From the IMG/VR virus record IMGVR_UViG_3300003885_000008, positions 1-44,035 of that record: a DNA stretch of 44,035 nucleotides. One strand, written 5' to 3'. Of the stretch, positions 19,174-24,304 are shown piece after piece. The translations under genes and the position numbers were made by a program. The notes under the pieces were generated by a model that was not told where the DNA came from, ran no database searches, and saw nothing but the letters and a program-made list of their open reading frames with translations. The stretch is from a virus. Positions within the stretch are counted from its first letter, which is position 1. Each line of letters opens with the position of its first letter.

Positions 19174-19446
19174 CTAACCGAAACCGGAACCGGAACCGGA
19201 ACCGGAACCGAAACCGGAACCGTCACCGAAACCGGAACCGGAACCGAAACCGGAACCGGAACCGAAACCGGAACCGTCACCGAAACCGTCACCGTTACTG
19301 TCACCGAAACCGTCACCGGAACCGAAACCGGAACCGTCACCGAAACCGGAACCGGAACCGAAACCGAAACCGGAACCGGAACCGTCACCGTTACTGTCAC
19401 CGAAACCGGAACCGGAACCGAAACCGGAATTTATTTTTCCTTCCAT
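19174..19446 (-). CDS. Gly/Ser/Phe/Asp-repeat protein encoded by a hexanucleotide repeat
   Basis: A 90-residue protein starting [20 protein letters not shown] and made almost entirely of SG, FG, DG and NG dipeptides. GAGGTG precedes ATG 19446, which overlaps the end of the upstream gene, so this frame is preferred over the Val/Thr/Pro/Ser frame (stop 19146). Each dipeptide is a GGT-x hexamer. The protein would be flexible, rather like FG-repeat or glycine-rich linkers; function unknown. Length is likely to vary between relatives through repeat slippage. Confidence 0.55.
19177..19431. repeat. Hexanucleotide minisatellite (ACCGGA/ACCGAA/ACCGTC units)
   Basis: About 250 bases built from units of six: AACCGG, AACCGA and the variants ACCGTC and TTACTG, seen as accgga, accgaa and accgtc. 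The unit length keeps all frames of one strand open. The units occur in higher-order blocks (for example a shared block at 19261-19296 and 19351-19400), a sign of repeated unequal exchange or slippage. Confidence 0.9.
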
Positions 19447-21796: not shown

Positions 21797-22068
21797 TTAC
21801 CACTTCTATCCCGCCATTCCTGAAGGTTGTTGGCCCATTTATCCAGTTCACCGTCAAAGATTACTTCGCAGACAGCGGTGTCGTCAGGAGCTTCGGAACC
21901 GTGATATAGATCATTAAGCGGGCACTTTGAGCACCCACGCTTACACACCTTAGCCAAGACTTCCATCGCTCCTATAATCTCGTCAAGCTCCTGGTTGGGA
22001 TCCCCGGTGGTCTCTGGCGGGAGGAACTGGCTGAATCCTTCGAGCGGGTCTGTCTGGGCGTTACTCAC
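21793..22068 (-). CDS. Hypothetical protein with Cys cluster
   Basis: A 91-residue protein from GTG 22068 (CCGGAG upstream). CKRGCSKCPLNDLYHG and a later Cys resemble the small Cys cluster seen in the next gene (CDSDKCDNSYSNC), so the two may be related. The operon position points to an early accessory role, unknown. Confidence 0.5.
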   Translation of the reverse strand: MSNAQTDPLEGFSQFLPPETTGDPNQELDEIIGAMEVLAKVCKRGCSKCPLNDLYHGSEAPDDTAVCEVIFDGELDKWANNLQEWRDRSGK

Positions 22069-22924
22069 TATTAATCTCCGGCAACAATTCCCAGATTGCC
22101 TTGATAACGCCTTTGTTCTCTTTCCAATATTTTAAGGCATTAATATTCATCTCAGATATTTTTTCATCTGAGAACCCAAACCATTCATCTGGTGTGTGAT
22201 ATTCACAGCCTATTCGGATGTTATTCTTTTGTATATAAGCCGTCCATTTCCCGGAATGGAAAGTTTTCAGGTTGACCTTGCTCAGGTCGGCGTTACGCAG
22301 GTTGGCGTAACTCAGGTCGGCGTAACTCAGGTTGGCGTAACTCAGGTCGGCGTTACTCAGGTCGGCGTTACGCAGGTCGGCGTTACGCAGGTTGGCGTAA
22401 CGCAGGTTGGCGTTACTCAGGTCGGCGTTACGCAGGTCGGCGTAACTCAGGTTGGCGTAACTCAGGTCGGCGTTAATCAGGTTGACCTTGCTCAGGTCGG
22501 CGTTACGCAGGTCGGCGTAACTCAGGTCGGCGTAACTCAGGTCGGCGTTACTCAGGTCGGCGTAACTCAGGTTGGCGTAACTCAGGTCGGCGTAACTCAG
22601 GTCGGCGTAACTCAGGTCGGCGTAACGCAGGTTGGCGTAACTCAGGTCGGCGTTACTCAGGTTGGCGTTACTCAGGTCGGCGTTACTCAGGTTGGCGTTA
22701 CTCAGGTCGGCGTTACGCAGGTCGGCGTTACGCAGGTTGGCGTAACTCAGGTCGGCGTAACGCAGGTTGGCGTAACTCAGGTCGGCGTTACTCAGGTTGG
22801 CGTTACTCAGGTCGGCGTTACGCAGGTCGGCGTTACTCAGGTTGGCCCGGCAACCATTTTCCTTACCATTTTCCCATTTTTTATGATCTTCCAGTATCTT
22901 TTTTATATTAAGGTTGTTATCCAT
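22061..22924 (-). CDS. Pentapeptide-repeat protein
   Basis: A 287-residue protein. After a 27-residue start (MDNNLNIKKILEDHKKWENG), about 40 consecutive pentapeptides of the A(D/N)LSN, A(D/N)LSY, A(D/N)LRN type run to near residue 215. They form a right-handed quadrilateral beta-helix. The C-terminal 65 residues (TAYIQKNNIRIGCEYH and onward) match the tail often attached to such repeats. Relatives include DNA-mimicking gyrase protectors, but many have no known role. GGAGGA precedes the ATG. The last bases overlap the next gene. Confidence 0.9.
   Translation of the reverse strand: MDNNLNIKKILEDHKKWENGKENGCRANLSNADLRNADLSNANLSNADLSYANLRYADLSYANLRNADLRNADLSNANLSNADLSNANLSNADLSYANLRYADLSYADLSYADLSYANLSYADLSNADLSYADLSYADLRNADLSKVNLINADLSYANLSYADLRNADLSNANLRYANLRNADLRNADLSNADLSYANLSYADLSYANLRNADLSKVNLKTFHSGKWTAYIQKNNIRIGCEYHTPDEWFGFSDEKISEMNINALKYWKENKGVIKAIWELLPEINSE
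22268..22850. repeat. Tandem 15-bp repeat array inside the pentapeptide gene
   Basis: Almost every unit is CAGGT(C/T)GGCGT(A/T)A(C)(T/G), with few variable positions, so the DNA itself is a near-uniform minisatellite of about 39 units. Most pentapeptide genes are far less uniform at DNA level, which implies recent expansion or homogenisation. As a by-product the opposite strand is also open across the whole array. Confidence 0.9.
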
Positions 22925-23725: not shown

Positions 23726-24091
23726 ATGGGAAAGCTCCCGGCCTTCTTATTTTATCCAAGCGATTGGACCCGTGACTTAGAGGAACATTCGTTCGAAATC
23801 CGGGGTGTTTGGATAACTCTGCTGTGTGTGCTTTGGTGGTCAGATGAAAAGGGGGTTTTGGTTAAAACTTTACCCAAAATTGCCAAACTTTTGCACGTTC
23901 GAACCGAGAAAGCGCACAAACTGGTGCAATATCTGCAAAAAGAGAACATTGCAGATATCCCCACGGATTTGGCACGAATTGACAAAAATACGCTTATAAC
24001 TATCAGATCGAGAAGGATGGTAAGTGACGAAAAGAAAAGGGAAAGCGATAGAAAGAGGAAGGAGAAGCAACGTAGAAATGTCACGGACTAG
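23726..24091 (+). CDS. Replisome-organiser N-terminal-like protein (DUF1376-like)
   Basis: A 121-residue protein. LPAFLFYPSDWTRDLEEHSF, GVWITLLCVLWWSDEKGVL and the winged-helix-like remainder resemble the N-terminal domain of DUF1376-type phage replication proteins. The end (RRMVSDEKKRESDRKRKEKQ) is the basic segment that normally leads into a linker and a second domain, but here a TAG at 24089-24091 ends the frame. The missing C-terminal type of domain is found in the same frame 213 bases later (24305). It would bind the origin and recruit helicase loading. Confidence 0.6.
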   Translation: MGKLPAFLFYPSDWTRDLEEHSFEIRGVWITLLCVLWWSDEKGVLVKTLPKIAKLLHVRTEKAHKLVQYLQKENIADIPTDLARIDKNTLITIRSRRMVSDEKKRESDRKRKEKQRRNVTD

Positions 24092-24151
24092 TCACAGCAA
24101 TGTCACGGTGTTTTTTAAGACTAAAAAAGCTTTTTGTCACGCTCTTGTCAC
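24080..24151. other. Candidate replication origin: five GTCAC iterons in helical phase
   Basis: GTCAC occurs at 24080, 24091, 24102, 24136 and 24147: steps of 11, 11, 34 and 11 bases, so all five face the same side of the helix. Between the two clusters lies an A/T-rich stretch with the palindrome AAAAAGCTTTTT (24124-24135). The array sits between two replication-protein genes, as in lambdoid origins. This is inference from spacing and location. Confidence 0.55.
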
Positions 24152-24157
24152 AACGCT

Positions 24158-24186
24158 CTTCATCTTCATCTTCATCTTCATCTTCA
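24158..24186 (+). repeat. (CTTCAT)n microsatellite
   Basis: Four complete CTTCAT units plus a partial one directly follow the GTCAC array, in the same intergenic stretch. It may mark a former linker sequence of a once-continuous replication gene or simply slippage. Confidence 0.8.
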
Positions 24187-24304
24187 GTTACAGTTTCAAG
24201 TAATAAAGAGGGAAGGGCTTCATGACCAGCCCTCGAAATTGAGTACAATTTCTCACCCGTCTAGTGACATTTCGGGAAATATCACGGCGGTTGAAAGGAA
24301 AAAA

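Follow-up and report, generated by a model that had tools for sequence, protein, structure and literature searches.

Phased GTCAC iterons in a truncated winged-helix initiator gene as a probable replication origin of a tailed phage

Replication origins have been mapped, to our knowledge, for few phages. Gene O of phage lambda and of the Stx phages contains, midway along its length, iterons together with an AT-rich tract (PMC7466680). In plasmids of the pSK41 type (RepA_N), a winged-helix N-terminal domain of ~120 residues binds boxes inside rep, the origin codes for a dispensable linker, and the C-terminal domain of Rep is DnaD-like (PMC5703833). The oriL of phage SPP1, located in gene 38, contains direct repeats and an A/T-rich element and is bound by the replisome organizer, the helicase loader being a separate protein (PMC6316719). 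A literature search limited to open-access papers found no report of GTCAC iterons and no functional description of the GTCAC/GTAAC arrays of DUF1376, Phage_rep_org_N or DnaT-like initiators; novelty is claimed here within that literature.

The DNA analyzed (hereafter, the window), 44,035 bp long, is the virus record of a tailed phage whose genes include those for terminase, portal, capsid, SSB, ERF and RusA. The following features are discussed.

23726..24091, + strand: predicted winged-helix initiator N-domain, 121 aa (corresponding to the DNA-binding half of an initiator of the DUF1376-like / phrog_9327 kind; PHROG match, AF2, Foldseek); the frame ends in the array
24080..24106, + strand: iterons 1-3, GTCAC at 24080, 24091 and 24102, in 11-bp steps; same steps in the relative L002
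24107..24135, no strand: A/T-rich stretch, a candidate for the unwinding element, containing the palindrome AAAAAGCTTTTT; stops here break the coding frame
24136..24151, + strand: iterons 4-5, GTCAC at 24136 and 24147, an 11-bp step
24157..24186, + strand: TCTTCA x5 pyrimidine microsatellite, candidate loading/unwinding element; the array-microsatellite junction is 23/24 identical to that of the relative L050
25334..26128, + strand: DnaD-like helicase-loader/initiator protein, 264 aa (phrog_2514, E 2e-28)

All five predicted copies of GTCAC are exact, with steps of 11, 11, 34 and 11 bp. When the local 1.1 kb was shuffled 2000 times with dinucleotides preserved, no shuffle contained four or more GTCAC in 72 bp, and none (0/2000) contained three 11-bp steps within 75 bp for a pentamer made of three or more different letters; in a second shuffle test, with degenerate phased chains, the array was matched in 0 of 500. 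When microsatellites were excluded, the whole window contained one other lag-11 pentamer triple, TATTC at 22200. The 34-bp gap between the third and fourth sites weighs against reading the array as an origin. According to the original prediction, all sites face one side of the DNA. At 11.0-11.2 bp per turn the sites do coincide (R 0.96-1.0), whereas at 10.5 bp per turn they spread over 137 degrees (R 0.57) and form two same-face groups of three and two sites.

The array was also said to lie between two pieces of replication protein. It begins inside ORF 23726-24091, the TAG stop of which overlaps the second site; counted from the start codon, it occupies +355 to +426, and the first 12 bp alone are still coding. 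As for gene 24305, formerly regarded as the second replication gene, its product matches no known family among Pfam and PHROG profiles. Directly 5' of this gene, at 24264-24284, there is an inverted GTGAC/ATCAC pair (GTGACATTTCGGGAAATATCAC-like) that resembles an inverted iteron motif.

The 23726 product matches positions 4-119 of 276 of phrog_9327 (primosomal protein, E 6e-5) and, in addition, phrog_13246 (replisome organizer), in both cases with the N-terminal half only. The Pfam search detected neither DUF1376 at E 1e-3 nor RepA_N, and sequence searches of the PDB gave no match. The AF2 model, built from 32 aligned relatives (pLDDT 89.9), shows the order of elements of a winged helix with a long basic helix at the end. 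In the Foldseek analysis, the best solved folds were the DNA-binding domains of Rep/RepA initiators (4pql, 4pt7 and 5kbj; E 3e-3, with a modest TM of 0.48 that counts against the origin reading), and its viral fold neighbours include DUF1376 proteins. The predicted winged helix-turn-helix (wHTH) fold together with the PHROG match suggests that 23726 encodes a sequence-specific DNA-binding domain. The ORF stops at residue 121 and lacks the C-terminal domain that DUF1376-like / phrog_9327 initiators carry in the same protein, which weighs against the origin reading.

With a probability of roughly 0.72, the sequence indicates that the array is an iteron-type tailed-phage origin in the linker-coding region of its own winged-helix initiator gene. 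The five GTCAC copies very probably serve as sites bound by the initiator, inside its own gene, as in phage lambda. The lambda iterons also lie mid gene, 3' of the N-terminal DNA-binding domain; they adjoin an A/T- or purine-rich tract, for which the A/T stretch and TCTTCA x5 are the candidates in the window. Their location, +349 to +433 of gene O, is close to that of the array in 23726. The lambda iterons are 18-bp palindromes spaced by 20-24 bp, whereas those of the window have a 5-6 bp core and one-turn (11-bp) steps; lambda O is intact, while the frame of the window initiator ends in the array; and the place of the AT-rich tract of lambda is taken by a hexanucleotide repeat. RepA_N systems (pSK41) share with the window the size of the predicted wHTH N-domain and the in-gene place of the putative origin, and the fold neighbours named above are Rep initiator domains; they differ in belonging to plasmids and in having the Pfam RepA_N and C-terminal domains that are missing in 23726. 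The oriL of SPP1, a phage with two origins, is similar in layout by its published description. The array is best read as an in-gene iteron origin with one-turn iterons, comparable to lambda oriL and RepA_N.

The predicted A/T palindrome AAAAAGCTTTTT is real (24124-24135) and lies inside the A/T-rich stretch. Also present is the microsatellite noted 3' of the array. Duplex stability at the 29-bp A/T stretch and at TCTTCA x5 is moderately low, among the lowest 4-6% of values in the window; it is not extreme, which counts against the origin reading. The Ser-coding frame of the TCTTCA tract differs from the frame of the 23726 N-domain, and stops are located in the A/T stretch; judged from these frames, the tract appears to be the relic of a poly-Ser linker, now in another frame. 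The GC-skew check suggested for the origin was run on the window and was uninformative because the skew follows gene orientation.

Phased GTCAC was sought in relatives and found: L002 and L050 keep both the steps and the place, and many phages share the array, although no close relative of the window is among those compared. L002, the closest intact relative among the matches listed (40% identity), carries GTCAC, GTAAC and GTCAC at the corresponding position, spaced by exactly 11 bp, with a CAGTTA-type repeat after them. L050, with an intact initiator of 276 aa, has six GTCAC in steps of 12, 12, 11, 11 and 11 bp, followed by GTCACCACGCTCTTCATCTTCATC; at the junction of array and microsatellite, where the window has GTCACAACGCTCTTCATCTTCATC, 23 of 24 bases are equal. 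In other DUF1376-type relatives the motif is swapped (GTAAC, GGTTAACC and AAGCAAAA types), with a CCAGAAG or TCTTCA repeat mostly kept behind it. The nearest DUF1376-like relatives carry mostly non-GTCAC iterons, which weighs against the origin reading. Look-ups with tblastn and blastn in named phages gave no match, and a scan of genome contigs with one protein gave one match. In the genes of DUF1376, Phage_rep_org_N and DnaT-like initiators (L002, L050, Butyrivibrio phage Bo-Finn, epsilon15 and others), the array occupies the same place with 11-12 bp steps and a microsatellite behind; unlike in the window, the frame is intact through the array, and the iteron letters vary by family. Comparison gives strong support to the core of the original prediction, that phased iterons beside an initiator gene mark a likely origin (the array recurs in L002, L050 and many initiator genes); its one-face part, under standard B-DNA, and its 24305 part found no support.

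For the phage of the window we infer protein binding, unwinding, helicase recruitment and continuing origin activity. Molecules of the 121-aa wHTH product of 23726 would line up next to one another on the DNA, one GTCAC being bound in each helical turn, and the resulting O-some-like complex would strain the adjoining TCTTCA tract and A/T-rich stretch. A DnaD-like loader would then bring the replicative helicase to the strand thereby exposed; as 23726 lacks the C-terminal domain, this loader is most likely the product of 25334. Residues 125-246 of the 25334 product match positions 125-249 of phrog_9327, which is the type of C-terminal domain absent from 23726; the version with a split initiator is therefore favoured. 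With the initiator frame interrupted at the array, the origin may be a recent relic or may depend on the DnaD-like product of 25334.

Relic status is the main rival to the origin reading. The 23726 module would have decayed, and the phage would replicate from another place, for instance from an origin associated with 25334, an initiator-type gene that is intact. The frame broken in the array and the missing C-terminal domain are consistent with this, as is the presence, 1.2 kb downstream, of an intact DnaD-like initiator/loader gene whose relatives L648 and L639 have phased arrays of their own. Against it, each of the five iterons and each of the five microsatellite units is perfect although most of the array is free of coding constraint, short initiator forms that lack the C-terminal part are found repeatedly (9 of 143 loci), and the linker of 25334 contains no significant second array in the window (equalled in 52 of 500 shuffles). 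On balance, a relic appears unlikely.

As to the relatives of 25334 themselves, the L648 gene contains GAAAC x5 at 11 bp (gene offsets 334-378) and that of L639 contains AACCAAG at 11 bp; in these DnaD-like initiator genes, repeats of the AAGAATGAT or AAGAAAG type are located 3' of the iterons.

A decidedly improbable alternative is an operator, the wHTH-only 23726 protein binding GTCAC and repressing its own or downstream transcription. Its product is indeed a DNA-binding domain alone, the inverted pair lies just before gene 24305, and in plasmid pIGRK an N-terminal form of Rep is known to act antagonistically (PMC6854812). However, the array lies ~350 bp inside the gene, 3' of the promoter-like sites of 23726, where intact initiators carry iterons, and an operator would not need the conserved microsatellite beside it.

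The distribution of such arrays bears on the origin reading. In the pattern scans of the collection, counts hold for the matches listed and are not frequencies, and PHROG tallies are given per family, the families overlapping. A DNA-only scan for three GTCAC at 11 bp yielded 57 or more different arrays located in ORFs of 120 aa or longer, with replication families dominating: among the matches listed, phrog_10469 accounted for 17, phrog_9474 for 15 and phrog_2509 for 14 (overlapping). In a hand-picked set of 48 proteins, the Pfam families were Phage_rep_org_N, DnaB_2, DnaT and DUF1376. A further set of 55 distinct genes was selected by protein similarity, with array-bearing proteins as seeds; GTCAC pairs occurred at lag 11 in 29/55, at lag 10 in 0/55 and at lag 12 in 4/55, GTGAC pairs at lag 11 in 19/55, and a tandem repeat (AAGAG tract) followed the array in 52/55. 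Equal-spaced triples sought without regard to motif were found at lags 11 and 12 in 7 and 7 of 59 and in 7 and 3 of 55 in two initiator sets, with almost nothing at other lags; flanking DNA gave 0-1 at lags 11/12, except for 5/104 at lag 12 in one control.

The 11-bp step is not unique, because a 10-bp spacing of GTCAC is likewise typical of another group of initiators (L130-L239; phrog_3729, WLRLWHDMPNDPKWRT type), phrog_3729 accounting for 24/56 among the matches listed. GTCAC at 16 bp, in antiphase, was not concentrated in initiators, no replication family exceeding 1/32 ORFs among the matches listed. CAGTC at 11 bp, tried as a neutral control, was rejected as such since it fell in initiator genes too (12/52 ORFs in phrog_2514 alone, among the matches listed); a few of its arrays overlap GTCAC arrays (L086, L113). 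As CAGTC at 11 bp hits initiators and GTCAC at 16 bp does not, it is the helical spacing that marks these genes, and the letters vary. Named phages agree, the layout being kept while the motif is swapped: GTCCGC iterons were found in epsilon15, phiPSA1 and Carin1; GTAAC/GTTAC iterons in CP2, VW-6S, TL-2011b, ZX5, 673R7, phi3.2, ctnlZ23 and Olaya, a purine-rich repeat lying behind in all of them; and GTCAC x3 at 11 bp in Bo-Finn. CAGTC and GAAAC also occupy the place of the array in initiator genes of several wHTH families, and the rep gene of TP901-1 contained no comparable array. The GTCAC motif, originally described as lacking a known match, therefore proved to form the same array in many phages, with other pentamers in its place in relatives.

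Two other lines of evidence were dropped: the same-strand orientation of array and gene, since GTGAC puts TGA stops in all frames at rotating steps, and frame balance in pattern-selected sets, where rotation is built in. That a repetitive linker peptide, or chance, makes GTCAC recur with no DNA function is very improbable: the linkers of these initiators are low-complexity and rich in simple repeats, but the 11-bp step rotates all frames (VT / SR-SQ / CH), so that no peptide is repeated, linker GTCAC in the protein-selected set falls in all three (35, 27 and 11), and most of the window's array is non-coding, the frame rotation and the 0/2000 shuffles largely refuting this reading.

It can be proposed, tentatively and with slightly less than even confidence, that several phage families share an origin grammar that is widespread and has not been described before: a wHTH initiator gene containing 5-6 bp iterons spaced by one turn (10-12 bp), then a purine or pyrimidine microsatellite for unwinding or loading. 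The letters would drift with the initiator while the spacing and the microsatellite stay, and the DNA element could outlive the frame, as in the window. If so, short iterons spaced by one turn and followed by a microsatellite, some 350 bp from the start of the initiator gene, would serve as a rule by which origins and the binding motifs of initiators could be predicted in many phage families; this would explain the odd low-complexity linkers and would make the co-evolution of initiator and iterons testable; the window would be an added case, in which the DNA part outlived the coding frame.

Several further observations were made. In L319, L321 and L330, a segment resembling an HNH nuclease (RDNFxCVYCG) is inserted in the initiator linker and splits the iteron array into two halves, the first near gene position 332-366 and the second near 631-663. 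In L326, L333, L340-L347 and others, a second GTCAC/GTGAC cluster is located ~220 bp upstream of the linker cluster, in the wHTH-coding part, with near-equal internal spacing (offsets 137, 148, 162 and 196 vs 357, 368, 382 and 393); the two clusters may loop together, or the conserved coding stretch may be of shared ancestry. In the window itself, 38 copies of a 15-bp tandem repeat at 22061-22924 (- strand) encode a pentapeptide-repeat protein, A(N/D)L, and ~42 copies of a 6-bp tandem repeat are located at 19176-19429, where several frames are open (VSVPVP / GSGFGD) and the product is likely a low-complexity protein.
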